A program made the translations under genes and the position numbers. Shown here piece by piece: positions 16,585 through 54,809 of a stretch of DNA of 64,000 nt. Under the pieces are notes generated by a model. It did not search any database, was not told the origin of the DNA, and was given only the letters and a program-made list of their open reading frames with translations. Positions within the stretch are counted from its first letter, which is position 1. Each line of letters begins with the position of its first letter. This stretch comes from Fulvivirga marina (lineage in GTDB: Bacteria; Bacteroidota; Bacteroidia; Cytophagales; Cyclobacteriaceae), in NCBI RefSeq assembly GCF_016775155.1, contig NZ_JAEUGD010000066.1:842833-906832 (forward strand), given 5' to 3'.

Positions 16585-16596
16585 TTTTAAATTTCA

Positions 16597-39929: not shown

Positions 39930-40361
39930 TCAGGACACCTCTATAGTTTTAGTCTTTTTACCGTTGATGGCCTGAGGTATCTCTAATCTGAGAATGCCAT
40001 TAATAAGCCTTGCTGATATTTTGCTTTGATCTATGTTAGGTTTTATATCTACCACCCGGCTAAATATTTGTGTTGGCACTTCCTTCTTAACATAGTTTGC
40101 CTTATCACTATCACCCTTTTTTTTGGCTGATATATAAAGTGCATCATTTTTTACTTCCAGGTTGATCTCATCTTTATTGAAACCTGGAATGGCTATTTCA
40201 AAAATAGTTACATCTCCCTGCTCCTTGACATTGGCTGGTGGTTTCACCATCCAACTGTCCTCAAAAGCACTTCTTCCCAAGAAATGATCAGAATCAAATA
40301 AAGTGGCATACCTGTCACCAATTCTATGGAAAGGGCCGGTTCTCTGCCTTAATAGTCCCAT
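39930..40361 (-). CDS. Small heat-shock protein, Hsp20 family
   Basis: 143 residues. The alpha-crystallin domain spans about 45-140: IFEIAIPGFNKDEINLEV, LYISAKK and the closing strand GILRLEIPQ, a variant of the conserved GVLxxxxP. The N-terminal 40 residues (RQRTGPFHRIGDRY) replace the usual variable arm. Such proteins are ATP-independent holdases in the cytoplasm. A TGA-N6-TCA box and a TAATTTTA -7-like element lie upstream, which places it with the uspA, CoA-transferase and cco units. Confidence 0.93.
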   Translation of the reverse strand: MGLLRQRTGPFHRIGDRYATLFDSDHFLGRSAFEDSWMVKPPANVKEQGDVTIFEIAIPGFNKDEINLEVKNDALYISAKKKGDSDKANYVKKEVPTQIFSRVVDIKPNIDQSKISARLINGILRLEIPQAINGKKTKTIEVS

Positions 40362-40384: not shown

Positions 40385-40449
40385 TAAAATTACCTTTTCC
40401 AAAGGTTGAAATGAGAGACCTGCATCATGGTTGAGGATGATTTTGGTCA
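40385..40449 (-). promoter_or_regulatory. hsp20 promoter with CRP/FNR-type box (TGATTTTGGTCA, 40438-40449)
   Basis: Palindromic TGA-N6-TCA centred at 40443.5, 82 bp before the hsp20 start. A TAATTTTA element (40385-40392), one base from TAnnTTTG, begins 51.5 bp from the box centre. The uspA and cco promoters show the same box-to-element spacing to within 1 bp. Inference: class I activator site. Confidence 0.55.
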
Positions 40450-40574
40450 TGTCCCTAAACTCCACATGCTCTTAATCGCTAACTTGGAAGATGTTGAAAT
40501 AATTCAAATTTTCATCTTTACAGAAATGAGATCAATGTTGACAATTCTTGTCGTAAAATTCCAAAGCTTCCTGA

Positions 40575-40775
40575 TCAGAAATCTTTAATTAACAATAAGC
40601 CCTTGCAGACCTCATCGATCTGATCCAGTTTAACAAGCACCATTGCCCTGTTAAAATAGTAATCCAGCTGGGTCGGATCTTTTTCTATGGCCTTTGTAAA
40701 CTGATCGAGAGCTTTATCAAGTTTGCCTTCATGATAAAAATTAATGCCTCTTGTAAAGTTACTGACGGCATATGA
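40575..40775 (-). pseudogene. TPR protein remnant
   Basis: A minus-strand frame without a start codon reads NFTRGINFYHEGKLDKALDQ, then FTKAIEKDP and YYFNRAMVLVKLDQIDE: one and a half tetratricopeptide repeats, ending KDF-stop at 40575. Upstream the text continues in another frame (KCDCLNIPENKDHMPSV), so a frameshift separates the parts. A short intact TPR protein cannot be excluded, but no start codon fits. From 40362 to 40574 there is otherwise only the hsp20 promoter. Confidence 0.5.
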
Positions 40776-40820
40776 TCTTTATTTTCAGGTATGTTCAAGC
40801 AGTCACATTTTTCTAAACCT

Positions 40821-42026
40821 TCATTTTTTATTCCACCTCTCCTCACTATATTCATCATTTCTTGAGGCTACCTCTCTGCTTTTCATTATTATATGATCTT
40901 TATCAATATATTTACCTCTGTACCCCAATAGGTGAAACAAGTCTCTTGCAAAGAAACGAGCTATTTTTTTATTGACGGCCAGGGTATCCTTAAAAGGCGA
41001 GCCCCAACTGATACCTGGTAAAAGTGTAAGGAGTTTATCCAACCGCACTTTTCTAAATACAGTAGACAACGTCAGAAACACTTTAGGAATTTTCCTTATG
41101 CAAAAGAAACCGTCATCACCCTGGTTTTGGTACAGCGGCATAAATATCAGACTGGTCTTTTTAGCCGGCACTATTTTTCCATTGCTAAGCGCTAACTCGG
41201 TACCTTTCTTTACAGTTTGAAAATTTTTAAATCCGGCTTTCATTTTAAAAGACTCCTGCTCTTCAATCTGATAACGGTAGAAAATCTCATAAAACTCATC
41301 TCTATCTCCAGACAGCGCAGTCAGCTTCTGATAATGCTTATCAAATTCAATATCAGCAGGATTAATACATCCGGAAAACGCTAGCGACAAATAAATGAAA
41401 GATTCATGATTTTCAATTGCATCTAAAGCGTCGTGTTGCCCACCCTCATAGCCAAAAGCCACATACCCCAACTCATTAATATAGTTAAGTAACGGTCCTA
41501 CCAGATATTCCTCTATCCCCAATATGATCGGTAAAGGATATTGCGAAGTATACTTCCTATTCAGGATGGTATCATTTACTGTTAAAAACGGCTTGGTTTC
41601 ACACGAGGTGGTGTGAAGGTCCATAAAATAAAAAGGACCTTTCTCTGATTTTAGTATGTCCTTAATGGTATGGTATATGTCCAATTGCTGAAGGGAATCG
41701 TCATCATGGGCATATGGTCTTTCACTTAGAAGCTTATGGAGTATTTTTTTGGTCCATAGCCTGTTCAAATCATGATTGATATACCTCTCACCCTTTTGAA
41801 GAGCTGTAAGATTACCACTAAGTGCATAAATGCTGCCTCTTAACTTAACATTCTTCCTTCTTAATTCACCAAGCACATTGTACAAAGCAAATATACCAGA
41901 AGGCTCATTGCCGTGAATCCCAGCAGAAAAAACCAAAGTAGGCCCATGCATCTCTCCCCTGATATGACCGATAATACGATCAACCTCTATATATCGGGCC
42001 AGAGCTTTGCTATAAACCTTAACCAT
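40821..42026 (-). CDS. Succinylglutamate desuccinylase/aspartoacylase family zinc hydrolase
   Basis: 401 residues from the ATG at 42026 (a GTG four codons upstream is possible). Zinc ligands of the M14-like AstE/AspA family are visible: H38-x-x-E41 in GIHGNEPSG and a later His in MDLHTTS near 134, with the NHDLNR segment in between. The family removes acyl groups from N-acyl amino acids. This protein is longer than AstE (about 320) and has a poorly conserved C-terminal 120 residues. Its start overlaps the stop of the GCS2/CBS gene by 8 bp, so the two are translationally coupled and probably act in one pathway. Substrate unknown. Confidence 0.82.
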   Translation of the reverse strand: MVKVYSKALARYIEVDRIIGHIRGEMHGPTLVFSAGIHGNEPSGIFALYNVLGELRRKNVKLRGSIYALSGNLTALQKGERYINHDLNRLWTKKILHKLLSERPYAHDDDSLQQLDIYHTIKDILKSEKGPFYFMDLHTTSCETKPFLTVNDTILNRKYTSQYPLPIILGIEEYLVGPLLNYINELGYVAFGYEGGQHDALDAIENHESFIYLSLAFSGCINPADIEFDKHYQKLTALSGDRDEFYEIFYRYQIEEQESFKMKAGFKNFQTVKKGTELALSNGKIVPAKKTSLIFMPLYQNQGDDGFFCIRKIPKVFLTLSTVFRKVRLDKLLTLLPGISWGSPFKDTLAVNKKIARFFARDLFHLLGYRGKYIDKDHIIMKSREVASRNDEYSEERWNKK

Positions 42027-43884
42027 GGTCAAATGCACTTACATCCTTTAAAGTAACAATGCCTACCAAGTCTTCTCCACATACTACAGGCAAACATCCA
42101 ATTTGATTCTTCCTCATGATACGAATGGCATTATTTATATCTGTTTGGGGTTGCACTGTAATAACTTTTGTTTCCATTATATCTGCTACCGTTCGCTTAT
42201 CATCACTCTTTCTTTCTTTATTTACCAACATATGAGTCCAAGTAAGCAAACCGCTTAACCTCCCTCGATTATCAGTTACAGGCATATGATGAATATTCTT
42301 CCATTCCATAATATTGATTGCCAGGTCAGCCGGGTCATTTTCATCAATTACAAACAATTGTGTAGACATAATGTGTTTCACCATACTGGCAGCTTCATGC
42401 ACCGGCCCTGAAACATTTAGTACCGGCCATTGAGCTACAGGAAAATCCTTATTTTGGTTATTGTGAATAGCCTTGGTTAATGCCAACAAGGCATCATCTG
42501 TTTTCATAAGTTTTCGCATATTCCTGTAGCTTCTTACCTGCCACTGTGCCCCTGTAAGCCTTGAAATTCGCTCGTCAATGACTTTAAGTAACTTCTCGAC
42601 ATCCTCTTTGTCTATCCCTTGCTCCAAAAGCCCTATATATGCCATGGGTAAAAGTTCTTTATTTAACAGGTCTCTTAAAAAAACATCTTCTCCCATCCAG
42701 TGCATTACAGATTCTTTTCCCGTTCTTGCTGCTTTAATAAAATTGGCTTTAACGTCACGGAAATCCATGTATGATGACATGTCATTGTATTTCTCCGGAC
42801 GCCCCATCATCAGTCCCGTCCAAAAAGCAAAATTTGCCATCTCATCCAATATAGTTGGGCCTGCAGGAAGGTACCTGTTTTCAATCCGTAAGTGTGCTTT
42901 ACCCTTAAAAACACCATAGCAGGGTCTGTTCCATCTATAAATGGAGCCGTTATGTAAGTTAATGGCTTCCAATTTTGGAGTTCTTCCTTTCTCCAACTCT
43001 GCCAGAGAATCCTTTTTAATGTCCTTGGCCAGGATTACCTTATAATTAGCAATATCATCCTTATAAATATTAGCGACTGACCCAAACTCCCAATGACTTC
43101 CAAAGGCGACCCTTGCCTGCTGATCTTTAAGTGCATAGGAAGAGGTTCTGGTATCCATGCTTTGCAAAAACAAAGCTATTCTAGTTTCACTCCATAGCTC
43201 ACGTCCCAACAATAGTGGAGAATTAGTGCAAAGCCCAAGAACCGGACCAGCTATAGCCTGCGCCCAATTGTAGCTATTAATATAATCCTTAGGACTGATT
43301 TGCAAATGCAACTGAAAACTAGTATTGCATGCTTCGAAAAGTACCGAATCGTGTGTAACAGCCAACTCGTCTACTCCCGTCATGTGCAATACAAAATCAG
43401 AATCGCGCTGAGTCCTTGTCATCTCATTAAGTGCCTTGTACCTTATACCTGGCGTTATAAACTCAAGGGTCAGCTCATCTTTGCTTATAGTTGGCAAAAT
43501 ACCTGTAACCAAAGTCTTGCTTTGGTGCTTTCTTGCAATGATGTCCGCCTTAGACATTAATGATTTTAGCTGATACTGCATTTGAGAAAAGCAGTCACCT
43601 GTAAGCTCTAAGGGATCGAGATTAATTTCGAGGTTATAACGGGCCAGTTCAGTAGTAAAATGCTCGTCATCCAACTCCTTAAGTATTATATCAGACTTGA
43701 CAGATGGCCTCCAGTTATTATCCACCAGACAAAACTCCTGTTCAGCACCTATCCTGACTATCCCCTTTTCAAAGCTATCCTTTTCAAGCATGATCTCCAG
43801 CGCCCTGATGTCACTCAGTAGGTGCCTGATAAATTTAGCCCTTATTTCACGGCTATCTGCCTTGGTTGCCAAATGATCTCCCAT
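42019..43884 (-). CDS. GCS2-type carboxylate-amine ligase fused to tandem CBS domains
   Basis: 621 residues. The first 480 are a glutamate-cysteine ligase of the GCS2 type (IGAEQEFCLVD near 45, LEINLDPLELTG near 105, HLQISPKDY, LRIENRYLPAGPT). The last 130 form two CBS motifs (IMSTQLFVIDENDPADLAI, then IMETKVITVQPQTDINNAI). GCS2 enzymes join Glu or a similar acid to an amine using ATP; CBS pairs sense adenine nucleotides, so activity may follow energy state (inference). It sits between uspA (65 bp) and the desuccinylase (8-bp overlap). True glutathione synthesis is not implied: no glutathione synthetase is near. Confidence 0.85.
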   Translation of the reverse strand: MGDHLATKADSREIRAKFIRHLLSDIRALEIMLEKDSFEKGIVRIGAEQEFCLVDNNWRPSVKSDIILKELDDEHFTTELARYNLEINLDPLELTGDCFSQMQYQLKSLMSKADIIARKHQSKTLVTGILPTISKDELTLEFITPGIRYKALNEMTRTQRDSDFVLHMTGVDELAVTHDSVLFEACNTSFQLHLQISPKDYINSYNWAQAIAGPVLGLCTNSPLLLGRELWSETRIALFLQSMDTRTSSYALKDQQARVAFGSHWEFGSVANIYKDDIANYKVILAKDIKKDSLAELEKGRTPKLEAINLHNGSIYRWNRPCYGVFKGKAHLRIENRYLPAGPTILDEMANFAFWTGLMMGRPEKYNDMSSYMDFRDVKANFIKAARTGKESVMHWMGEDVFLRDLLNKELLPMAYIGLLEQGIDKEDVEKLLKVIDERISRLTGAQWQVRSYRNMRKLMKTDDALLALTKAIHNNQNKDFPVAQWPVLNVSGPVHEAASMVKHIMSTQLFVIDENDPADLAINIMEWKNIHHMPVTDNRGRLSGLLTWTHMLVNKERKSDDKRTVADIMETKVITVQPQTDINNAIRIMRKNQIGCLPVVCGEDLVGIVTLKDVSAFDHG

Positions 43885-43949
43885 AATGATACATTTTAAA
43901 GATTTTGACCGGCTGGCTTCCTGAGTAAATTAAGGCCATAGGCAATATT

Positions 43950-44414
43950 CTAGCCTGAGCCAATGGCTGTTTCCTCTCTTACCTCCTTGGAGGGTATAAG
44001 CAATACCGGACAATTAAATCTTGCAAGTACACTTTCATCGCCATCCTCCCACCTCTCTTTTAAGCGCATCTTAATGTTCTCTGTTAGGACTATCAGGTCC
44101 ACATTATACTTTTCAATAGCCATGGCCAAACGATCATTAATAAAACCCACCTCTGCAAGGAATGTATGCCTGACCTGTTCAAATTCCGGGAAGCGCTTCT
44201 TTAGTTCTTCTATCCTTTTATTGGCGATTTCCTCTTGTTGCCTCTTTAGTGAGATCCTATTGGCACCAGCTTTATCATCGGTACCCGAAATCAATCTATA
44301 CGTATATAGTACGACTAATTCGCTTTGGTTGGATTGGGCAATATCCAAGGCAAATGACAGGGCATTAGCAGAGGACTCTGAGAAGTCAACCGGACAAATT
44401 ATACTTTTAAACAT
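43950..44414 (-). CDS. Universal stress protein, UspA family
   Basis: 154 residues from ATG 44414; the in-frame upstream extension is rejected because MFKSIICPVDFSESS is the normal N-terminus of the fold. The C-terminal nucleotide loop is of degenerate type (ARFNCPVLLIPS after a shortened glycine loop). First gene of the usp-GCS2/CBS-desuccinylase operon and divergent from the histidine kinase. Cytoplasmic stress protein; binding of ATP or AMP is not assured. Confidence 0.9.
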   Translation of the reverse strand: MFKSIICPVDFSESSANALSFALDIAQSNQSELVVLYTYRLISGTDDKAGANRISLKRQQEEIANKRIEELKKRFPEFEQVRHTFLAEVGFINDRLAMAIEKYNVDLIVLTENIKMRLKERWEDGDESVLARFNCPVLLIPSKEVREETAIGSG

Positions 44415-44448
44415 GGCTATTGATATAGATATCTCGTTTATTTTTGTA

Positions 44449-44514
44449 CTAAAGTAGCAAGCTGACCATTGTATCATCATGAATACCTGTCATGGGTATT
44501 ACTGATTTTTATCA
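44449..44514 (-). promoter_or_regulatory. uspA promoter with CRP/FNR-type box (TGATTTTTATCA, 44503-44514)
   Basis: TGA-N6-TCA centred at 44508.5, 94 bp before uspA. TACTTTAG (44449-44456), one base from TAnnTTTG, begins 52.5 bp from the box centre. The box also lies 48 bp before the GTG start chosen for the divergent kinase, so one site may serve both genes. A second inverted repeat, AATACC/GGTATT (44482-44500), lies between box and element. Confidence 0.55.
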
Positions 44515-44561
44515 TATTTTTAAATTCAAAAGAAATTGCTAGCATTAAACAAATTTTTAGG

Positions 44562-45836
44562 GTGACAAAAGAACATCAGGATACGTACAAATCAATATTT
44601 GAAGCCTGTGAAGAGGGAATTTTAGTAGTTAATAAAGGCGGCACAATAGTAATGGCCAATACGGCATGTAATAATCTGTTTGGGTATAAACCTGGCGAAA
44701 TGATAGGCCTGAAAGTAGAAGATCTGGTACCACCCAATGTAAAAATCTCTCATATAAAAGACCGTAAAAATTACGAAAAACACCCTTCACCACGCCAAAT
44801 GGGGAAAGGTCGTCATCTTTCCGGACACAAAAAAAATGGGGATGAATTTCCTGTCGAAATAAGCTTGAATCGGGCTCAGATTGACGGTATAGATCATACC
44901 GTAGCTTTCATAATAGACATTACAGAAAGAAAAAAAATAGAAGAAGCTCTTAAGAGAAGTGAGGAACAACTGATTGTATATGCAGCTGAACTAGAAAAAA
45001 GAGTAACACAGCGAACTAAAGAACTTGACTTCACCATAAGCAAGCTTGAAAGAACCAATGCCGAGCTTGAAGAGCAGGTTACTATTAGGAAAAAGGCTGA
45101 GGAAGAAACCCAATTAGCTCTGAGCCGGGAGCGGGAGCTCAATGAACTTAAGACAAGATTTGTATCTATGGCTTCTCATGAATTTCGAACTCCCCTAAGC
45201 ACCATACTTTCATCTGCCTCGCTTATTGAGCGATATGTTGATGTCGGAACGGAGGAAAAAAGACAGAAACATGTCGACAAAATAAAATCTTCGATAAGCA
45301 ACCTCACTGCTATACTCAATGACTTCCTTTCTGTATCCAAACTTGAGGAAGGCAGAGTAGAACTCCATAAGGAAGTCATTAACCTGAATGAGATGCTATT
45401 GGACATTATTGATGAGATGTCCGCAATAGCTAAAGAGGGGCAGGAGATCAAGTTGATTTTCGATAATGATCGATACTATTTATATTCGGACAAAAAAATA
45501 CTGAAAAATATACTGATCAACCTACTGAGTAATGCAATAAAATACTCTGAACCTGGTAAAACCGTAGATTTGATCGTTGAGGAAAAAAAGGAAGGAGTAT
45601 TGTTAAAAGTATCTGATAAAGGTATGGGTATCCCTGAACAAGAACAAAAACATATGTTTGAAAGATTCTTCAGGGCCTCAAATGCTACCAACATTCAGGG
45701 GACAGGGCTTGGACTGAATATTGTAAAAAAATATGTAGATATGCTGGAAGGTAGCATTTCATTTGCTAGCAAACTAGGAGCTGGAACTACAGTAAGTATT
45801 GATCTTCCAAATAATGAACCGGAGACCACTCCTTAA
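44562..45836 (+). CDS. PAS-domain sensor histidine kinase
   Basis: 424 residues from GTG 44562. An alternative TTG at 44469 would run through the regulatory box and add a hydrophobic leader (YLSWVLLIFIIFL), so membrane anchoring cannot be wholly excluded. PAS domain about 8-120 (FEACEEGILVVNKGG, HLSGHKKNGDEFPVEISL), coiled coil about 125-190, H-box MASHEFRTP with phosphoacceptor H206, N-box NLLSNAIKYS, and G-boxes DKGMGIP and GTGLGLN. No haem or Fe-S ligand is evident in the PAS. It is followed after 23 bp by the REC-CRP regulator, its likely partner. Confidence 0.92.
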   Translation: MTKEHQDTYKSIFEACEEGILVVNKGGTIVMANTACNNLFGYKPGEMIGLKVEDLVPPNVKISHIKDRKNYEKHPSPRQMGKGRHLSGHKKNGDEFPVEISLNRAQIDGIDHTVAFIIDITERKKIEEALKRSEEQLIVYAAELEKRVTQRTKELDFTISKLERTNAELEEQVTIRKKAEEETQLALSRERELNELKTRFVSMASHEFRTPLSTILSSASLIERYVDVGTEEKRQKHVDKIKSSISNLTAILNDFLSVSKLEEGRVELHKEVINLNEMLLDIIDEMSAIAKEGQEIKLIFDNDRYYLYSDKKILKNILINLLSNAIKYSEPGKTVDLIVEEKKEGVLLKVSDKGMGIPEQEQKHMFERFFRASNATNIQGTGLGLNIVKKYVDMLEGSISFASKLGAGTTVSIDLPNNEPETTP

Positions 45837-45859
45837 ATAATATTAAACTAACTGTGTAT

Positions 45860-46933
45860 ATGAAAAAGATACTGATCATAGAAGATAACAAAGAGATCCG
45901 GGAAAATATCGCCGAAATTCTTGAACTGGACGGATATGAAACCATTCAGGCTGGAAATGGCAAGGAAGGGGTACAAAAAGCCCTGGAGGAAATGCCTGAC
46001 CTCATCGTCTGTGATATTATGATGCCCGAGCTAGATGGGTATGGTGTTCTTCACATCCTCGCCAAAAAAGAAGAAACTGCAAGCATACCCTTTATATTCC
46101 TTACAGCTAAAGCCGAAAGAAGCGATGTAAGAAAGGGTATGAAACTGGGTGCTGATGATTACCTGACTAAGCCTTTTGAAGATACTGAGCTTTTGGATGC
46201 TATTGAAATAAGGTTTAAAAAGGCCGAGGTACTCAAGAAGAATTACAATGGCAGCACCGAAGGTTTTAATGAATTCATCAAGGATGCAAAAGACCTGCAC
46301 GACCTCTCTCATCTACATGCCGACAAAAAACCCCGCCCTTACAAGAAAAAACATGACATCTACCGCGAAGGTGAGTATGCCAACTATATGTATTTTGTTG
46401 CCTCAGGAAAAGTTAAAAGCATACGTACTAATGAAGATGGCAAGGAGCTTATCACCGGTATTTATACTGAGGGTGACTTTTTCGGTTATGAAGCCTTGCT
46501 TGAGAGTAAAGAACACGCGGATAGTGCTGAAACCATGGAGAAATCAGAGATTGTATTCATTCCTGCCGAGGAATTTTATGAACTGATCTATACCAATAGA
46601 GAGGTCTCCAAAAAGTTTATTGAAATGCTATCTAACAAAGTTTCTGAAAAAGAGTCAAAACTACTGAACCTCGCCTATAACTCGGTACGCCAGCGTACTG
46701 CCGAGGCGCTGATCACGGTAAGTGAAAAGTTTAACCCTGATAATGTAGAAAGCTTTGAGTTGAGTGTATCCCGTGATGATCTGGCTAATATCGTTGGTAC
46801 TGCCACAGAATCTGTCATAAGGGTAATTTCAGATTTGAAGGAAGAAGGTATACTCGAAACACGATCTGGTAAAATAGTGATTCTCCGAAAGGATAAACTT
46901 CAGCAGATTCAGAGGTGGCACTTTGCCAAGTAG
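45860..46933 (+). CDS. Response regulator with REC, cNMP-binding and CRP-type HTH domains
   Basis: 358 codons including stop, from ATG 45860 (a GTG two codons upstream is less likely). REC domain 1-120 with acidic pocket IIEDN, phosphoacceptor D52 in CDIMMPE, and conserved Lys in YLTKPFE. A CRP/FNR cyclic-nucleotide-type barrel follows (about 145-255: YREGEYANYMYFVASGKVKS, EGDFFGYEALL). The C-terminal HTH is SRDDLANIVGTATESVIRVI. No N-terminal Fe-S Cys cluster is present, so oxygen would be sensed through the kinase, not as in FNR. The HTH belongs to the family that reads TGA-N6-TCA half-sites, which occur upstream of hsp20, uspA, the CoA-transferase and ccoNO. Confidence 0.93.
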   Translation: MKKILIIEDNKEIRENIAEILELDGYETIQAGNGKEGVQKALEEMPDLIVCDIMMPELDGYGVLHILAKKEETASIPFIFLTAKAERSDVRKGMKLGADDYLTKPFEDTELLDAIEIRFKKAEVLKKNYNGSTEGFNEFIKDAKDLHDLSHLHADKKPRPYKKKHDIYREGEYANYMYFVASGKVKSIRTNEDGKELITGIYTEGDFFGYEALLESKEHADSAETMEKSEIVFIPAEEFYELIYTNREVSKKFIEMLSNKVSEKESKLLNLAYNSVRQRTAEALITVSEKFNPDNVESFELSVSRDDLANIVGTATESVIRVISDLKEEGILETRSGKIVILRKDKLQQIQRWHFAK

Positions 46934-46966
46934 AAGTAAAAAACTAAAAGCCCCGTAATTTGAACT

Positions 46967-47006
46967 GCACCCCAAAAGTTAGACATAACCTTTGGGGTGC
47001 TTTTTT
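46967..47006. terminator. Rho-independent terminator, probably bidirectional
   Basis: Stem GCACCCCAAAAGTT (46967-46980) pairs with AACCTTTGGGGTGC (46987-47000) with one mismatch and a 6-base loop, followed by six T on the plus strand. It ends the kinase-regulator operon and faces the convergent CoA-transferase stop at 47036. The ACCCCAAAAGTT text resembles terminal repeats of some IS3-family elements. Confidence 0.85.
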
Positions 47007-47035
47007 AGTCTATATTAATACCTCAATCCAAAAAA

Positions 47036-48319
47036 TTAAACCTTAGCCATAAACCGGTCATAAGCCGCTCGCTCCAGTTCCTCTCTATGATCCGGGTGGG
47101 CGATAGATATCAGAGCCTGAGCTCTCTGCTTTAGATTTTTCCCAAAAAGATCAACCACTCCATATTCTGTAACAATATAATGAACGTGTGCTCTGGTAGT
47201 AGTTACCCCTGCACCCTGTTTTAGAAATGGAACAATCTTAGAAATACCTTTAGAAGTTACAGATGGTAAAGCTATAATGGCCTTGCCTCCGGGGGACAAA
47301 GATGCTCCACGGATAAAGTCCATCTGCCCCCCAACACCAGAATACTGGTACTTACCAATGGTATCAGCACAAACCTGACCGGTAAGATCTATTTCTATAG
47401 CACTGTTAATGGCCGTTACTTTCGGGTTTTGCCTGATTAGCGCTGTATCATTGGTATAAGCCGCTTCCTTCATATGAACAAGAGGATTGTCGTCCATAAA
47501 ATTGTACAACTTTTGAGAACCTACCGCAAAACAACTTACAACCTTGTTTGGCTTTACCTTCTTTTCTTCTCCCGTAATTACACCTGATTCCACAAGGGGT
47601 AAGATTCCGTCAGAAAACATTTCCGTATGAATACCTAACCTTCGGTGATTTTTTAAATTTGCCAAAACCACGTTAGGAATAGCACCAATACCCATCTGCA
47701 AAGTGGCTCCATTCTCTACCAGACCGGCCACATGTTGTCCTATGAGCCTTTCCTGTTCATTTGGCTCTGCTATGGCTGAGGTGTATATAGGCAAGTTTAC
47801 ATCAATAGCACAGTGGATTTTACTTACATGAATTATCCCATCTCCATGTGTTCGGGGCACCATAGGATTTATTTGAGCTATAACGGTCTTGGCAGATTCA
47901 ATGGCAGGAATAGCTACATCAATTGAGGTACCCAATGAACAAAAACCATGTTTATCCGGCATTGAAACCTGGATGAATGCCACATCAAGAGGTAGAATAT
48001 TTTGTCTGAACAACAAGTGTACTTCACTGAGGAATATAGGAATGTAATCTCCATTTCCTGCGTTAACAGCTTCTCTTACATTACCTCCTACAAAGCAGCT
48101 ATTAACCCTGAACGACTGGCAATAAGGCTCTTGGGCATAAAGTGCTTTCCCCTCTGTATGTAGATGAAGTAGTTCCACATTTTCCAGTTCCTGATAGCGA
48201 TTGCATAACGCCTCAACCAAAACAGTTGGCGTCATGGCTGCGCCCTGAATAAAGACTCTGTTACCTGATTTTATATTGGCCACTGCCTCCTCGGCAGATA
48301 CTATTTTTAAATCATTCAT
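47036..48319 (-). CDS. Acetyl-CoA hydrolase/4-hydroxybutyrate-type CoA-transferase
   Basis: 427 residues of the Cat1/Cat2 family. Visible signatures are LQMGIGAIPNVVLANL, YSGVGGQMDFIRGA and the C-terminal EYGVVDLFGKNLKQRAQAL, with HPDHREELE as usual close. Family members move CoA between acetyl-CoA and a short organic acid, often in fermentative or low-oxygen metabolism. Acid specificity is not readable. It is a single-gene unit with a TAGCTTTG -7 element and a TGA-N6-TCA box upstream, and it shares a terminator with the convergent regulator. Confidence 0.9.
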   Translation of the reverse strand: MNDLKIVSAEEAVANIKSGNRVFIQGAAMTPTVLVEALCNRYQELENVELLHLHTEGKALYAQEPYCQSFRVNSCFVGGNVREAVNAGNGDYIPIFLSEVHLLFRQNILPLDVAFIQVSMPDKHGFCSLGTSIDVAIPAIESAKTVIAQINPMVPRTHGDGIIHVSKIHCAIDVNLPIYTSAIAEPNEQERLIGQHVAGLVENGATLQMGIGAIPNVVLANLKNHRRLGIHTEMFSDGILPLVESGVITGEEKKVKPNKVVSCFAVGSQKLYNFMDDNPLVHMKEAAYTNDTALIRQNPKVTAINSAIEIDLTGQVCADTIGKYQYSGVGGQMDFIRGASLSPGGKAIIALPSVTSKGISKIVPFLKQGAGVTTTRAHVHYIVTEYGVVDLFGKNLKQRAQALISIAHPDHREELERAAYDRFMAKV

Positions 48320-48363
48320 AATTAACCTTATTTATGGTTCAATTGATCTCCTAATTGTTACTC

Positions 48364-48406
48364 CAAAGCTACATGTCAGTACATCTTTACAATATGACCT
48401 TTGTCA
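48364..48406 (-). promoter_or_regulatory. CoA-transferase promoter with CRP/FNR-type box (TGACCTTTGTCA, 48395-48406)
   Basis: TAGCTTTG (48364-48371) is a perfect TAnnTTTG, 45 bp before the start codon. The TGA-N6-TCA box is centred 29.5 bp from its first base, about position -41, the class II activator position. The other three boxes lie 22 bp (two helical turns) further out. Confidence 0.6.
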
Positions 48407-48790
48407 CAACTAATACTGAAAAGGATCACTTTCGTACACCGTCAAATAAGAAGAAAAACACTCAAATTGTTAATCATATTTTGATAAAATTTCATTACAT
48501 GCGAAAGAGGAATACCGAGGACTGCCCTTGCGACAGGTAATTCGGACTATTTTGAAGCCACATTTTTGTCCAACCCTAAAAATGATGCCAGGGACAGGAA
48601 ATGGGCAAGGCTCCTGACAAACTGGACTTTAAAATAATGTAGTTTGAAAAACTGAGCCCGGATGAGAGGATAAACACCGTCTGTAACTTTTTGATCAAAC
48701 TAGAAGTGCTCCCCCTTAAACAAAGAGGACATCAAAAGTTTTAAAAACTTCCGATGTCCAAATATCAAGCCTTCACCAAGAGTACTTACT
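48407..48790. other. Intergenic region with coding remnant and hairpin
   Basis: No intact gene. Around 48648-48735 a plus-strand frame reads FEKLSPDERINTVCNFLIKL after a stop codon, suggesting a decayed gene. A strong hairpin, GGACATC (48727-48733) with GATGTCC (48753-48759) and AAGTTTT/AAAACTT inside, lies 30 bp beyond the stop of the SafE-like gene and probably ends the cco operon, although it lacks a T run. Confidence 0.5.
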
Positions 48791-49492
48791 CTAAGGCGCA
48801 CCACATGTTGTGATACCCAAATCCCAGCCAACTGCAGTCATAACAGGGCTTACATAGGGAATATCAAGCGCCATACCCCTGAGTATCAACAAAGTGCCCA
48901 TAATGATAGCTAAGGAGGTTATAACATGTTGATAAGAAAAGGCTTGTTTACTTTTGAAAAACTGAATTACACCAGCAAGCCCTAACATAACCGGGGATGT
49001 CCCTAAACCAAATCCTGTCATTACCAATACAGAACCAGCCACGCTACCAGAAGCCACCGACAATGATAGCCCCATATACACAAGCCCACATGGTAGCAAG
49101 CCATTTAGCACACCTATTAAAAATACGGACGATAGCTTCTGCCCATCAATCAAACCACTCAACAGCCGTCTCATAGGAATAATAACCTTAGTATGCCAGG
49201 CTGATTGCAGCAGTTTGTGTTGAAAGCGTGGATAAAGTGTTAGAATAATAATTGTAACACCCATAATCACCGAAAGTACCTGCTGCGAACCAAATATGGC
49301 CAGCCCCTGCCCTACCATGCCAAATACAACTCCCAGAATAACGTAGGTTGTCAATCTTCCTACGTTATATGCAACCTGCCTTGAATACGAGCTTTTTGAG
49401 TAAACAGCTATAGCAAGTGGTCCACACATGGTAGCACAGTGCAAGCTACCCACCATCCCCGTCATCAAACCGGTGATAAATAAGGCATTCAT
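48791..49492 (-). CDS. SafE/TauE-like membrane protein of the cco cluster
   Basis: 233 residues with about six hydrophobic segments and the signature GSLHCATMCGPLA near residue 15. This family of UreH/SafE-like proteins is often encoded at the end of cbb3 oxidase operons in Bacteroidota, where a metal (copper) or assembly role is assumed but not proven. The Cys-x-x-x-Cys of HCATMC could bind metal. It follows the fixH-like gene by 3 bp. Confidence 0.85.
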   Translation of the reverse strand: MNALFITGLMTGMVGSLHCATMCGPLAIAVYSKSSYSRQVAYNVGRLTTYVILGVVFGMVGQGLAIFGSQQVLSVIMGVTIIILTLYPRFQHKLLQSAWHTKVIIPMRRLLSGLIDGQKLSSVFLIGVLNGLLPCGLVYMGLSLSVASGSVAGSVLVMTGFGLGTSPVMLGLAGVIQFFKSKQAFSYQHVITSLAIIMGTLLILRGMALDIPYVSPVMTAVGWDLGITTCGAP

Positions 49493-49495
49493 AAA

Positions 49496-49930
49496 TTAGA
49501 TTATCAGAGTTTTCTCCTCATAATACTCCCGATCATTTTCATGCCAGCTTATTTTGACTCTCCAAAGACCTTTCTTAAAATCACTGGCATGAAAATGTTG
49601 ATACCCTTCGGCATCAGGCTTTAGTACATACCGAGCATCCAGCGAAGCATCAGATGGCCGGAAGAAGTGAACCTCCCCTTTTCCGGCATAGCTTTTAGGA
49701 AGTATTAAAACAATCTTATCGGTCTGTACTTCATACTTCAACTTCACCTGATTGTCCCCCAAACCCTTATAATTTTTGATCCTTTCTATTTGATCCTGAT
49801 AGGCAATCTCCTGCACATAATAATCCTTGGCGACGAGACTTACATCCTGCCGCATGCTTATGATTACCATGGTGGCAATTAACCCTACAAAAAGGATAAA
49901 AGACACGACTATTTTTGTTCCCCAGTTCAT
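49496..49930 (-). CDS. ccoH: FixH/CcoH family cbb3 oxidase assembly protein
   Basis: 144 residues: one N-terminal membrane helix (KIVVSFILFVGLIATMVII), then a periplasmic beta domain with YYVQEIAYQDQIERIKN and a closing GLWRVKISW strand, as in FixH. It helps assembly of cbb3-type cytochrome oxidase. It sits between ccoG (34 bp) and the SafE-like gene (3 bp). Confidence 0.9.
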   Translation of the reverse strand: MNWGTKIVVSFILFVGLIATMVIISMRQDVSLVAKDYYVQEIAYQDQIERIKNYKGLGDNQVKLKYEVQTDKIVLILPKSYAGKGEVHFFRPSDASLDARYVLKPDAEGYQHFHASDFKKGLWRVKISWHENDREYYEEKTLII

Positions 49931-49964
49931 TTTGATTCCATTTTAAAGTTATACAACAAAGCAC

Positions 49965-51395
49965 CTAGTCGGTTGATACCGGTCCTAAAAACTTGGTTGT
50001 TGTTTTATCTATGCGTTTTCCATCGGCATAAACACCAATGGTCAATGTTGTTTTTGCCGATTTAACCAATTCCTTAGGCATACTTACAAAAAACACCCCT
50101 TCAGTCAAGCCATTGGCAGGTACAACCGTCTCTCCTTCACCTACTTTTGTGATGGTTACCTCCGGAGCATTTTCTATTCTCAACTCCAGACTGACCTCTT
50201 CAAAAGTCTTATTTACAAATTGCACATTATATAAATTTGTAATATTACCGTCTTCAGTTCTCTGATAAAGCTGCCCCGGTACTTTAAGTACAGTAGCTTC
50301 AATATCCGAACGTGTAGCCAGAGAAAAAACAAAAATAACTACCAGCAGTGTCAGTACCACCGTATATGCCGCTACACGGGGTGTGAAAAGCTTTTGCTTT
50401 CCTTGTTTTATAGCATCATGAGATGAATACCTGATCAGGCCCTTGGGCTTATTGACCTTCTCCATCACATCATCGCATGCATCAATACATGCAGTACAGT
50501 TCACACACTCTAACTGCGTACCATTACGTATATCAATTCCCGTAGGGCAGGCATGAACACATAGCTTACAATCAATACAATCTCCTTTCTCATCCTGCAC
50601 ATTGCCCTTTTTCAGCTTGCCTCTTGGTTCACCTCTGAGCCAGTCATACATTACAGCTATAGATTTTTTATCCAGCAACACACCTTGCAACCTTCCATAA
50701 GGACAAACAGCTATACAGGCCTGCTCTCTAAACCAGGAAAACACCCAATAAAAAATACCAGTAAATGCCATTAGCCCTAGAAAACCCGCCCAATGCTCAG
50801 AAGGTGCCTGACTTACAATCTTCTGAACCTCATCTATTCCTATCAGGTAAGCCATTACGGTATGAGATATCAGCAGGGAGATGACGATAAAAATCAAATG
50901 CTTAGCTGCTCTTTTCTTTATCTTATCAAAGTTCCATGGACTTTTGTCCAGCCTCCTTTGCTGATTAGCATCACCTTCTATCCAGTATTCAATCTTTCTG
51001 AATACCATTTCCATAAAAAGTGTTTGAGGACAGGCCCAGCCGCACCAGACCCTACCAAACACTACTGTAAACAAAATGATGAACACAAAAAAGGTGATTA
51101 ACAAAAGTGCTAACAAGAAAAAGTCCTGGGGCCAGAATGCCTGTCCCAGGATCACAAACTTACGTTCAAAAATATTCAGTAACAGAAAAGGACGACCCCC
51201 TATCTTGATAAACGGACCGGCAAAAAGAATACCTAACAACACTACAGTAACCAGTATGCGCAACTTATGAAACCTTCCCGAGGGCTTTTTAGGGTACACC
51301 CATACCCGCTTTCCTTCTTCATCTACCGTAGCTATGGTATTCTTAAACTCCTGATCAAACTGATACAATTCCTCCATGTCTCTTCGCTCACTCAT
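49965..51395 (-). CDS. ccoG: CcoG (FixG/RdxA) Fe-S assembly protein for cbb3 oxidase
   Basis: 476 residues. Five hydrophobic segments, a CGWACPQTLFMEMVF motif, and two 4Fe-4S motifs (CIDCKLCVHACPTG, CVNCTACIDACDD) near residues 270-310, then a C-terminal Ig-like periplasmic domain. CcoG reduces copper during cbb3 biogenesis in studied bacteria. Located directly after ccoP. Confidence 0.95.
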   Translation of the reverse strand: MSERRDMEELYQFDQEFKNTIATVDEEGKRVWVYPKKPSGRFHKLRILVTVVLLGILFAGPFIKIGGRPFLLLNIFERKFVILGQAFWPQDFFLLALLLITFFVFIILFTVVFGRVWCGWACPQTLFMEMVFRKIEYWIEGDANQQRRLDKSPWNFDKIKKRAAKHLIFIVISLLISHTVMAYLIGIDEVQKIVSQAPSEHWAGFLGLMAFTGIFYWVFSWFREQACIAVCPYGRLQGVLLDKKSIAVMYDWLRGEPRGKLKKGNVQDEKGDCIDCKLCVHACPTGIDIRNGTQLECVNCTACIDACDDVMEKVNKPKGLIRYSSHDAIKQGKQKLFTPRVAAYTVVLTLLVVIFVFSLATRSDIEATVLKVPGQLYQRTEDGNITNLYNVQFVNKTFEEVSLELRIENAPEVTITKVGEGETVVPANGLTEGVFFVSMPKELVKSAKTTLTIGVYADGKRIDKTTTKFLGPVSTD

Positions 51396-51417
51396 GATAT
51401 CTTCACCATTTTTCTTG

Positions 51418-52362
51418 TTACATACTTGCTTCTACTACTTTAACACTATCGGTTGGAGTTGGTTCCTCTACTCCTTTTTCTAGTTCAGGTTCATATAATT
51501 CCCCCTGAGGTCCTTTAGCGTTTGGCGGGTTGGTACCTGCCAGGCTCATCACAAATGAAGATACATTTTGCATTTCATCAGGAGATAGCAATGGCTCCCA
51601 GGAAATCATACCTTTTTCGGGCACACCCTGCTTGATAGTTTTGAATATACTTTTGATGTCTCCTCCATGGATCCAATATTTATCAGTAAGGTTTGGCCCT
51701 ATACCACCAGCTCCATCTTCCTTATGACAGGGTGCACAATTACTAATAAATACTTCACGGCCGTTATCTAATAGCGCCTGATCTGTAACTCGTTCCACAT
51801 TTTCCTCATTGATATCACTGACCGGAGTGTCAGCCTTTCTTGCCAACGCCACCTTTTCAGCTTGCGCCACTTCTGACTGATACTCTTCAAGTTGTAAGGG
51901 CATCGTTCCAAACACGTGATATCCCGCCAGGTAAACAACTGCAAAGGCAATGGTTCCATAAAACAACCATTTCCACCATGGTGGCAAGTGATTGTCGAGT
52001 TCACGGATGCCATCATAGTTATGATCCAGCATAATAGTCTCTTCACTCTCAACAGGCACTGCATCGTTAGCTTCTGTCAGGAACTTAGACCACCAGCTCC
52101 TTTGAGGAGCCTCCTCATATACTTCACCTCTGGCTTCCGCCTCTTTACGTGTCTGCAATTTAACCATCAGCCTCAACAGCTTAAGGATAACCACTGCAAC
52201 AGCCAGCACTACAAGGGCTGTAACAAACACAAAACCCATTACGATATAAAATTCGATACTGCCTGCGGTCGATGCTTCCCCGGATTGCGCCCAGGTACTC
52301 CCCGTCAACATTAGTAAGGTAATTAAGCCGAGTGCTTTTAAATATTTATTTATACTATTCAT
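51418..52362 (-). CDS. ccoP: CcoP, cbb3 oxidase cytochrome c subunit with one haem
   Basis: 314 residues: N-terminal signal-like helix, a second helix (IEFYIVMGFVFVTALVVLA), the conserved cbb3 N-domain (LDNHLPPWWKWLFYGTIAF), and a single cytochrome c domain with CAPCH near 208 and distal Met in GMISWEPLL. Proteobacterial CcoP carries two haems; here there is one CxxCH only. Its start overlaps ccoQ by 4 bp (ATGA). Confidence 0.94.
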   Translation of the reverse strand: MNSINKYLKALGLITLLMLTGSTWAQSGEASTAGSIEFYIVMGFVFVTALVVLAVAVVILKLLRLMVKLQTRKEAEARGEVYEEAPQRSWWSKFLTEANDAVPVESEETIMLDHNYDGIRELDNHLPPWWKWLFYGTIAFAVVYLAGYHVFGTMPLQLEEYQSEVAQAEKVALARKADTPVSDINEENVERVTDQALLDNGREVFISNCAPCHKEDGAGGIGPNLTDKYWIHGGDIKSIFKTIKQGVPEKGMISWEPLLSPDEMQNVSSFVMSLAGTNPPNAKGPQGELYEPELEKGVEEPTPTDSVKVVEASM

Positions 52363-52556
52363 GATCTTTCTGTTTTGACGGTTGACAATGTATTTCCCTC
52401 CTCACTTACAGGCAGGTTCTTCATCTTACTTACATAGCCTTTGTCCATCTTTACTACCCAAAGGAGAAGCCCTACAAAGAAGATGAAGAAAATAGACAGA
52501 GAAATTATAGGCCAGACCTCCACCTGATGTATTTGTTCAAAATAATGCTTAAACAT
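52359..52556 (-). CDS. ccoQ: CcoQ/FixQ-like small cbb3 subunit
   Basis: 65 residues with one membrane helix (PIISLSIFFIFFVGLLLWVV) followed by a charged tail. Position between ccoNO (4 bp) and ccoP (4-bp overlap), size and topology identify it as CcoQ, which stabilises the oxidase. Confidence 0.85.
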   Translation of the reverse strand: MFKHYFEQIHQVEVWPIISLSIFFIFFVGLLLWVVKMDKGYVSKMKNLPVSEEGNTLSTVKTERS

Positions 52557-52560
52557 GATC

Positions 52561-54711
52561 TTATTGGTTTGATGATTCTAACTTAGAACTCTGTGATTCT
52601 GTCTTCACTTTAATATCTGTTCCTAATCGCTGTAAATAAGCAATTAAGGCTACGATCTCTGTTTCAGGCATAACTTCAATACCATCCTGCTCTTTCAGGT
52701 TTTTGGCTATCTGCTGCGCCTGAGCCATCAACTCCTCATTAGCTATCTCTTCATACCCCTCTTCATATGGTACTCCCAGTATTCTCATGGCACTCACCTT
52801 ATCGGCGGTGGTCTGTATATCTATAACACTTTCAAACAACCATGGGTATGGAGGCATAATTGAACCGGCAGAAACTGCTGCGGGGTCCAGCATATGATAG
52901 TAGTGCCAGCTATCAGGATACTTACCTCCCACTCTGTGCAAATCAGGACCGGTACGTTTTGATCCCCAAAGGAATGGGTGATCATATACAAACTCTCCAG
53001 CTTTTGAATATTCACCATAGCGCTCAGTCTCCGATCTAAAAGGTCTGATCATTTGTGAGTGACAACTCACACAACCCTCTCTGACGTACAGGTCTCGACC
53101 ATGGAGTTCCAAAGGAGAGTATGGTTTAACACTGCTTATAGTTGGCACATTGCTCTTGATCAGGAATGTAGGCACCATTTCAATTACACCACCTATTACA
53201 ATAGCTACTGTAGTAAATATTGTGAAGAGTACAGGTTTTCTTTCCAACACACTATGCCAGTGGCCACCCACATGTTTTTTGTGTTTTTCCAATGGAGCTG
53301 CTTCAGCGGCCTCATTAGCCTCAAAACTTCCACTTTTAGCAGTCTTAACGAGGTTGTAGGTCATAATAAACACACCCGTGAGATAAAGAGACCCACCAAC
53401 AGCTCTCAACATATACATAGGTAAAATCTGTACTACTGTTTCCAGGAAATTTTTATACTCAAGGAAACCTTCTGGATTAAATTCTTTCCACATCAAGCTT
53501 TGAGTAATACCCGCCACGTATAGTGGTAATGCATAGAAAATGATCCCCAGAGTACCAATCCAGAAGTGGATATTGGCAAGCCTAACAGAGTGTAGTTTTG
53601 TATTCCACATTCTTGGTACCATCCAGTAAAGCATACCAAAAGTAAGGAAACCATTCCAACCCAACCCACCAACGTGTACGTGTGCCACAATCCAGTCGGT
53701 AAAATGAGCAATGGCATTGACATTCTTCAATGAAAGCATAGGGCCTTCGAAGGTAGACATACCATATGCAGTAACTGCCACTACCATGAATTTCAAAATA
53801 GGATCTTCACGAACCTTATCCCAGGCACCTCTAAGGGTAAGTAATCCATTAAGCATCCCCCCCCAGCTTGGAGCAATTAGCATAACAGAAAATACAACAC
53901 CTAATGACTGCGCCCAGTCAGGGAGTGCAGAATAAAGCAAGTGGTGAGGTCCGGCCCATATATATATGAAGATCAATGACCAGAAGTGAATAATGGATAA
54001 TTTATATGAGTAAACTGGTCGGTTAGCAGCTTTAGGAAGAAAATAATACATTAAACCCAAAAACGGCGTAGTAAGGAAGAAAGCTACAGCATTGTGCCCA
54101 TACCACCATTGAACCAACGCATCCTGTACACCTGCATACCAACTGTAACTCTTCATAAAACTAACAGGTAGTTCAAAAGAGTTAACAACATGCAGCACGG
54201 CTACTGTTACAAAGGTAGCTATGTAAAACCAAATGGCCACATACATGTGCTTCTCTCTACGTTTCAGTATAGTACCGATCATGTTGATACCAAAAACCAC
54301 CCATATTAATGTGATGGCAATATCGATTGGCCACTCCAGCTCTGCATACTCCTTGGACGTGGTAAAACCCATAGGAAGGGAGATCGCTGCCGCTAGTATG
54401 ATCAGTTGCCATCCCCAAAAATTAATCCAGCTTAGGGCATCCGAGAACATTCTTGTCTTCAACAAGCGCTGCATCGAATAATATACCCCTGCGAAAATGG
54501 CGTTACCAACAAAGGCAAATATGACCGCATTGGTATGAAGTGGACGAATACGACCAAAAGTGGTATAAGCCGTATCAAAATTAAAAATGGGGTAAAAAAG
54601 TTGAATGGCTGCCGTTAGTCCTACTAACATACCAACCACTCCGAAAATAACTGTAGCTATGATAAAATACTTTACGATCTTATTGTCATAGCTGAATTTT
54701 TCGAGTTCCAT
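52561..54711 (-). CDS. ccoN: CcoNO, fused catalytic and mono-haem subunits of cbb3 oxidase
   Basis: 716 residues. The CcoN part (about 1-480) has twelve hydrophobic segments with the haem-copper His pattern (RPLHTNAVIFAF, WWYGHNAVAFFL, IWAGPHHLLY, VAHVHVGGLGWNG). The CcoO part (about 500-715) has a membrane helix and one c-haem (CVSCHSQMIRPF near 545). Separate genes in Proteobacteria, fused here as in many Bacteroidota. Terminal oxidase with high oxygen affinity, inner membrane. A CRP/FNR-type box lies upstream. ccoS and ccoI are not in the neighbourhood. Confidence 0.96.
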   Translation of the reverse strand: MELEKFSYDNKIVKYFIIATVIFGVVGMLVGLTAAIQLFYPIFNFDTAYTTFGRIRPLHTNAVIFAFVGNAIFAGVYYSMQRLLKTRMFSDALSWINFWGWQLIILAAAISLPMGFTTSKEYAELEWPIDIAITLIWVVFGINMIGTILKRREKHMYVAIWFYIATFVTVAVLHVVNSFELPVSFMKSYSWYAGVQDALVQWWYGHNAVAFFLTTPFLGLMYYFLPKAANRPVYSYKLSIIHFWSLIFIYIWAGPHHLLYSALPDWAQSLGVVFSVMLIAPSWGGMLNGLLTLRGAWDKVREDPILKFMVVAVTAYGMSTFEGPMLSLKNVNAIAHFTDWIVAHVHVGGLGWNGFLTFGMLYWMVPRMWNTKLHSVRLANIHFWIGTLGIIFYALPLYVAGITQSLMWKEFNPEGFLEYKNFLETVVQILPMYMLRAVGGSLYLTGVFIMTYNLVKTAKSGSFEANEAAEAAPLEKHKKHVGGHWHSVLERKPVLFTIFTTVAIVIGGVIEMVPTFLIKSNVPTISSVKPYSPLELHGRDLYVREGCVSCHSQMIRPFRSETERYGEYSKAGEFVYDHPFLWGSKRTGPDLHRVGGKYPDSWHYYHMLDPAAVSAGSIMPPYPWLFESVIDIQTTADKVSAMRILGVPYEEGYEEIANEELMAQAQQIAKNLKEQDGIEVMPETEIVALIAYLQRLGTDIKVKTESQSSKLESSNQ

Positions 54712-54743
54712 AAGCTATCTGGTTATAAATTAATTATCAATCA

Positions 54744-54809
54744 CGAAGGTACCTATAGCCTCTCCTGAGCAACATGATGAGAATTAGCGAGAAAACTGAT
54801 TTATGTCAG
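54744..54809 (-). promoter_or_regulatory. cco operon promoter with CRP/FNR-type box (54796-54809)
   Basis: CTGATTTATGTCAG is a palindromic extended TGA-N6-TCA site centred at 54802.5. TACCTTCG (54744-54751), one base from TAnnTTTG, begins 51.5 bp from the centre, matching hsp20 and uspA. The rest of 54712-55033 shows no gene. Confidence 0.6.

Follow-up and report, generated by a model that had tools for sequence, protein, structure and literature searches.

Tandem FNR-like operators at four promoters of Fulvivirga marina and a receiver-CRP protein as their probable reader

A 64,000-nucleotide stretch of the Fulvivirga marina genome (contig NZ_JAEUGD010000066.1, positions 842,833 to 906,832; hereafter the window) contains four promoters, those of hsp20, a universal stress protein gene (usp), a CoA-transferase gene and the cbb3 oxidase operon (cco), that share a TGA-N6-TCA box. 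Our analysis makes it probable that these promoters form one low-oxygen or stress regulon with tandem operators, which would most likely be read by REC-CRP, a regulator that combines a receiver with CRP-type domains and would be fed by a neighbouring histidine kinase. The proposed operator consists of two adjacent 12 bp sites, TGAY-N4-RTCA, whose centres are predicted at about -41.5 and -63.5 relative to the transcription start, ahead of a TAnnTTTG element; since they are 22 bp apart, both would lie on nearly the same face of the DNA. The genome measures 6.78 Mb and is close to that of Fulvivirga kasyanovii, whose REC-CRP protein is 96% identical.

Tandem operators in the window

The boxes named in the original prediction were re-measured and all were found where it had placed them, on the minus strand: TGACCAAAATCA at 40438-40449 (hsp20), TGATAAAAATCA at 44503-44514 (usp), TGACAAAGGTCA at 48395-48406 (CoA-transferase) and TGACATAAATCA at 54797-54808 (cco). 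The distances from box centre to the first base of the TAnnTTTG-like -7 element, 51.5, 52.5, 29.5 and 51.5 bp, were likewise as it had claimed. The -7 element is exact at the CoA-transferase gene only and has one mismatch at each of the other three, and the hsp20 promoter offers a competing -7 candidate at 36.5 bp. A bare box alone is weak evidence, because the window holds 40 TGA-N6-TCA sequences when 23.9 are expected (none of 100 shuffles reached 40).

At all four promoters we found a second site 22 bp from the noted box, which had been overlooked. The hsp20 promoter (40385..40449; all four promoters and their target genes are on the minus strand) has its noted box as the distal one, a proximal box TGATGCAGGTCT with one mismatch at 40416-40427 and the -7 element TAATTTTA at 40385-40392; its target is hsp20 (39930..40361). 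The usp promoter (44449..44514) also has the noted box in the distal position, followed by a proximal site that is one base longer (TGA-N7-TCA, TGACAGGTATTCA, 44480-44492) and the -7 element TACTTTAG at 44449-44456; the extra base explains why its spacing is 52.5 instead of 51.5 bp. Its target is the universal stress protein gene at 43950..44414, whose start was moved to the ATG at 44414. In the CoA-transferase promoter (48364..48428) the noted box is the proximal one, the second site is a perfect distal box (TGATCCTTTTCA, 48417-48428), and the exact -7 element TAGCTTTG lies at 48364-48371, the target being an acetyl-CoA hydrolase/transferase gene (47036..48319). The cco promoter (54744..54808) combines the noted distal box with a proximal box TAATTCTCATCA carrying one mismatch (54775-54786) and the -7 element TACCTTCG at 54744-54751, and the first gene after it encodes the ccoNO fusion of the cbb3 oxidase (52561..54711).

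These second sites speak against the division into CRP-style classes I and II that had been proposed for the four promoters: each of them has both sites, with the extra base at usp, and the 22 bp difference between the supposed classes arises because the boxes come in tandem 22 bp apart. A class I promoter would have a lone site near -61.5 and none at -41.5, and all four window promoters possess a proximal site, perfect or degenerate.

We scored the window with a sequence-only model built from 107 tandem promoters, none of them from the window, and the four promoters ranked at the top of the 64 kb (25.4, 21.7, 21.3 and 17.6 bits). Since one training sequence was the CoA-transferase promoter of F. 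kasyanovii, the scoring was repeated with a second matrix of 65 columns and 100 promoters, from which the closest relatives (L001-L005 and L015) were left out. The four promoters were again the best of the window, with 37.3, 32.3, 29.3 and 10.6 bits, and the three at 29-37 bits exceed the best score obtained in 200 Markov-shuffled windows (15.9 bits). The value of 10.6 bits belongs to the usp promoter and falls within the chance range, and it rises to 39.3 when one base of the longer proximal box is left out.

Spacing and pairing of the boxes in related loci

To compare the promoters with those of relatives, we fetched 80 related loci carrying a REC-CRP protein, with up to 10 kb on each side; genes in these loci and in the window were called by a simple purpose-made gene caller. 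In the 80 loci and the window together, the density of TGA-N6-TCA in intergenic DNA (2.10 per kb) is five times that inside genes (0.42 per kb), and the intergenic boxes are strongly biased to TGAY-N4-RTCA. Around 231 intergenic TGAYN4RTCA sites (window included) that had not been chosen for spacing, every exact TAnnTTTG on both sides was counted. This element occurred 33 times at 29.5 bp and 35 times at 51.5 bp, against an overall mean of 0.86 per position, and four times each at 30.5 and 52.5 bp. Both peaks coincide with distances given in the original prediction.

When 95 promoters chosen for the 51.5 bp spacing were aligned, a second TGA-N6-TCA that had not been selected for appeared exactly 22 bp downstream, at the 29.5 position. 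With promoters ignored, the 231 sites had 91 perfect partners at 22 bp (a pair of two perfect sites counting twice), compared with a mean of 0.57 at other distances, and in this partner analysis a third box further upstream did not rise above background. The unselected proximal box and the partner counts led us to reject the existence of two promoter classes. Of the -7 elements whose distal box is perfect (125), 103 are also accompanied at the class II position by a proximal box with one mismatch or none, where control places predict about 2.5%. A wider set of 178 -7 elements, each preceded at one or both class distances by a perfect box, bears directly on the possibility that two separate kinds of promoter exist after all, with CRP-like sites of class I near -63.5 and of class II at -41.5. 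Both boxes have at most one mismatch each in 116 of them, and both sites are present at every window promoter, if the extra base at usp is allowed for; a perfect proximal box with a distal one of two or more mismatches was seen in 40 and the reverse in 22, some of which may be single-box promoters, and nine of 42 genomes with only an FNR-type regulator (see below) have a single class II box at cco. We consider this alternative very improbable.

Tandem pairs can also be shared. Eleven of the aligned pairs (L002:6507-6602, L023:6074-6169 and nine others) are each used by two divergent promoters; for either promoter the nearer box is the class II site, and either has a -7 element of its own. The stretch separating the kinase gene from its divergent neighbour, which corresponds to the usp region, was compared in nine relatives: all nine keep a perfect distal box in the matching position, and in all nine the proximal box has one to three mismatches; in L001 the neighbour is a universal stress protein by Pfam.

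The class II site of Escherichia coli CRP lies at about -41.5. With the -7 element taken to cover -12 to -5, as reported for Flavobacterium psychrophilum (PMC9723704), the two box centres would fall at -41.5 and -63.5, and the proximal site would fit the class II position relative to these predicted start sites.

Further tandem operators in the genome

A gapless pattern, TGAYWWWWRTCA, was tried on the F. marina genome and discarded. It gave 93 sites against 60 in the reversed control, and four of the 50 sites listed had a perfect partner and promoter-like spacing. Because this list was mostly chance, a 65-column model was used instead, and 150 of 4251 first-look candidates were scored with it. 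Nine of the 16 matches with E <=0.05 are within 30 kb of one of the three REC-CRP genes of the genome, where 0.43 would be expected; with the window region set aside the figure is 5/12 against 0.22 (P 1.3e-6). The cco promoter is the best-scoring match of the genome, and a tandem operator precedes the gene of one REC-CRP paralog itself. The genome scan for the box at these spacings, which the original prediction had put forward as a check, uncovered further tandem operators clustered at REC-CRP genes. The suggestion of a local low-oxygen or stress regulon is supported as far as the regulon is concerned, and its purely local character is not, as copies occur elsewhere in the genome, though concentrated around the three REC-CRP genes. 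This clustering around all three genes also supports REC-CRP as the likely regulator.

Further candidate targets in the genome are, by Pfam, YceI, cytochrome c, FtsH, OsmC, a universal stress protein and PEP synthase, together with a LolA-like protein, a CcoI-like P-type ATPase and an Mrr/ATP-cone protein. For several of them the -7 element or the score of the match is poor, above all for the ATPase (E 0.14) and for HemA (E 0.15; identified by eye). The targets in relatives include universal stress proteins, ccoNO, cytochrome c, Rrf2, a P-type ATPase, an iron-centre repair protein, hsp20, HemA and CoA-transferase. The ccoNO targets comprise 18 genes in 18 loci, all with a perfect distal box. 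The target profile is that of a low-oxygen and nitrosative stress regulon.

A second island, G000:C62:13000-61000, surrounds one REC-CRP paralog and has tandem operators before the paralog, OsmC and PEP synthase, with weaker matches elsewhere. Its operators may answer to another signal, because the neighbouring kinase looks membrane-bound.

The REC-CRP regulator

The proposed reader of the tandem boxes is encoded at 45860..46933 on the plus strand and has a receiver, a cNMP-binding-like domain and a Crp-type helix-turn-helix. In Pfam it matched Response_reg (8.9e-29), cNMP_binding (6.5e-22) and HTH_Crp_2 (1.5e-15), which places it in the CRP/FNR family. The acceptor Asp and the Lys of the receiver are present in 80/80 REC-CRP proteins, as in two-component receivers, and phosphorylation is predicted. 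The recognition helix has Glu in 80/80, Ile in 79/80 and Arg in 80/80; the Ile sits at the place of Ser212 of FNR. This Glu...Arg helix and the TGAY-N4-RTCA palindromes are those of an FNR-like operator system, with binding predicted. A CxxC occurs in 0/80 of the proteins, so they lack the N-terminal iron-sulphur cysteines of FNR proper. REC-CRP operons have a site in 48/77 of their upstream regions, compared with 165/466 of the other upstream regions of the same loci (window included).

The cco promoter and FNR-type proteins

We surveyed 247 genomes of the class Bacteroidia and found a REC-CRP match (E <=1e-40) in 118, ccoNO in 145 and both in 91. The stretches upstream of ccoN were examined in 48 of the 90 other genomes with both, taken by similarity of their ccoN to ours, and in 52 of the 54 genomes with ccoNO and no REC-CRP. 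The composite searched for was two boxes plus a -7 element; up to three mismatches were allowed overall, and no more than two within the boxes. A score of 3 or better arose in about 0.4% and 0% of the Markov controls. FNR status was set from the alignment start among the matches listed, not from the cysteines of each match. On this basis the pair is present at cco in 28/30 genomes that have REC-CRP and no FNR-type protein among the matches listed, and in 14/18 with both, two more of which have one box. It is also present in 2/6 genomes with neither regulator, and in these two a regulator may have been missed because the assemblies are 93-95% complete; it was seen in 0/4 genomes of ambiguous FNR status, two of which have one box. 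In the three REC-CRP-negative genomes from the same family, an FNR-type protein is present and cco lacks such an operator. Two simpler schemes were rejected: the box is not specific to REC-CRP, as genomes with only an FNR-type protein also have it, and REC-CRP and FNR do not strictly exclude each other, as at least 38 of the 118 REC-CRP genomes also have an FNR-type match among those listed, which extend to E 1.6e-48. Separately, the L036 contig, filed as Bacteriovoracaceae, carries Bacteroidota-like REC-CRP and cco genes and possibly belongs to a mis-binned assembly.

Stand-alone FNR-type proteins were found in 42 of the 52 cco genomes without REC-CRP. In a set made of the best-matching protein from each of 29 REC-CRP-negative genomes, most are about 235 residues long, 28/29 have a CxxC near the N-terminus, and 12/29 are encoded within 12 kb of ccoNO. 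The Glu, Ile and Arg of the recognition helix are present in 29/29, and the helix (REDIANIVGTATETAIR in one of them) is nearly the same as that of REC-CRP (RDDLANIVGTATESVIR). In a tree, REC-CRP and FNR-type proteins form one group that excludes two of the F. marina genome's three other CRP proteins, and the split between REC-CRP and FNR-type is unsupported. A single origin of REC-CRP would need one change on this tree, yet with support of 45/0 and long branches it is not established.

The best reading of these sequences is that REC-CRP differs from classical FNR in its input, a receiver apparently replacing the cysteine segment while the recognition helix and the operator were kept. On this reading the sensor input was exchanged while the DNA code stayed one, with iron-sulphur in the FNR-type proteins and a receiver in REC-CRP. 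The fuller scenario, to which we give an even chance, is that across Bacteroidia an FNR lineage swapped its iron-sulphur sensor for a receiver fed by a heme-PAS kinase, like FixJ and FixK fused, and kept operator and targets. The activator would work as adjacent dimers on an operator pair with 22 bp phasing, one member of which occupies the class II position; divergent genes could then share a pair whose nearer box serves as class II site for each. To our knowledge, tandem adjacent-dimer activation with one box at class II has been described for neither CRP nor FNR.

The kinase and its signal

The PAS histidine kinase is encoded at 44562..45836 on the plus strand, with an uncertain GTG start. 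A plus-strand promoter for the kinase gene itself, using the pair at 44503, was looked for and not found. Its PAS domain is nearest to those of FixL and DosP among solved structures: FixL was matched with E 3.4e-14, and 13 of the 17 PDB sequences listed are FixL or DosP, counting two entries named heme PAS sensor protein and yddU, which we take to be DosP. A PAS kinase lies directly upstream of REC-CRP in 55 of 81 loci (window included), and these kinases have the FixL heme His in 54/55, the remaining row being gapped, and the Arg in 50/55. Heme binding and oxygen sensing by this domain are thereby suggested. The His alone does not show heme, since it is also present in another kinase of the genome that lacks the Arg (by eye). 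Another protein, that of L305, looks by eye globin-like at its N-terminus and has FixL-like His and Arg in three PAS stretches; we presume it to be an Aer2-like chemoreceptor.

REC-CRP might read a real regulon in response to something other than oxygen, with a heme-less PAS domain sensing redox state, nitric oxide or another cue. Heme is deduced from residues that include the His just mentioned, the kinase that follows one REC-CRP paralog has a different sensor part, which looks membrane-bound (by eye), and the iron-centre repair proteins among the targets of relatives suggest nitric oxide. Set against this are FixL and DosP as the nearest solved PAS domains, five loci in which the PAS at the same place looks even more FixL-like (by eye), and the targeting of ccoNO in 18 loci. 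We regard a signal other than oxygen as a rather unlikely alternative.

With oxygen as the preferred signal, the neighbouring kinase would sense it through the FixL-like heme PAS and, at low oxygen, would phosphorylate the receiver of REC-CRP, whose acceptor aspartate is invariant. Phosphorylated dimers would then sit side by side on both boxes, and the dimer on the strong box would ease binding of a second one to its frequently degenerate neighbour, as the sequence pattern suggests. From its position, the dimer at -41.5 could contact RNA polymerase as a class II activator.

Evidence against REC-CRP as the reader

Several observations weigh against this model. Many of the sampled genomes are related, so that the counts are not independent events. 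An upstream site is lacking in 29/77 REC-CRP operons, so that under two thirds have one. At cco there is no operator in 2/30 REC-CRP-only genomes and in 2/18 with both regulators, and genomes with only the FNR-type protein have the pair in 23/42, a single class II box in nine more and none in 10. The helix Ile is replaced by Asn in one aligned REC-CRP paralog of F. marina, and in the other paralog by eye. The kinase with the PAS His and without the Arg belongs here too, as does another CRP-family protein of the genome, L086, whose recognition helix also has Glu-x-x-Ile-Arg and whose gene is about 0.6 kb from a tandem operator. A protein of the L086 type might then read the boxes, REC-CRP being a mere neighbour or target. 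Yet the genomic matches cluster around all three REC-CRP genes, the rest of the helix (GTATE) puts REC-CRP closer to the FNR-type proteins, and the cco pair is kept in 28 of the 30 REC-CRP genomes without an FNR-type protein among the matches listed, in a survey of REC-CRP and FNR-type rather than L086-type proteins. We judge L086 an unlikely reader, and REC-CRP stays our preferred one.

Elsewhere in the window, 5896-25695 encodes on the minus strand two giant non-ribosomal peptide synthetases of 3562 and 3032 aa, which have condensation, AMP-binding and carrier domains.

Comparison with known systems

In our judgement little is known of low-oxygen control in Bacteroidota, and the present result adds an operator, a spacing rule, a regulator and a target list. 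No description of a REC-CRP regulator or of tandem FNR boxes in Bacteroidota was found in the open-access literature, judged by titles and the starts of abstracts. The species compared here offer a natural experiment, in which the reader of one DNA code seems to be an iron-sulphur sensor in some species and a receiver under kinase control in others.

Compared with the class I and class II promoters of E. coli CRP, the proximal box at about -41.5 is alike, whereas the distal box, instead of being an alternative site, repeats the proximal one in tandem at a distance of 22 bp. The DosS-DosR dormancy regulon of mycobacteria also has a heme kinase and universal stress protein and hsp20 targets, and differs in regulator family and operator. 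FNR and FnrN share with REC-CRP the Glu and Arg of the recognition helix, an FNR-like operator core and similar targets; unlike FNR-type proteins, 28/29 of which have the CxxC, REC-CRP has none (0/80) and bears a receiver.

The FixL-FixJ-FixK cascade of Alphaproteobacteria resembles our system in its heme-PAS kinase on top (the heme being predicted here), its cluster-less CRP/FNR activator and cco as a core target. The step in which FixJ activates fixK is missing here, because the receiver and the CRP/FNR parts are in one protein, and the operators here are paired. The FnrN/FixK operator consensus is given as TTGANCNNGATCAANG (PMC4999443), and has the same TGA-N6-TCA core. The same source proposes that in Caulobacterales FnrN was lost and replaced by FixLJ-FixK acting on existing FnrN sites (PMC4999443), a replacement that parallels the iron-sulphur and receiver inputs found here.

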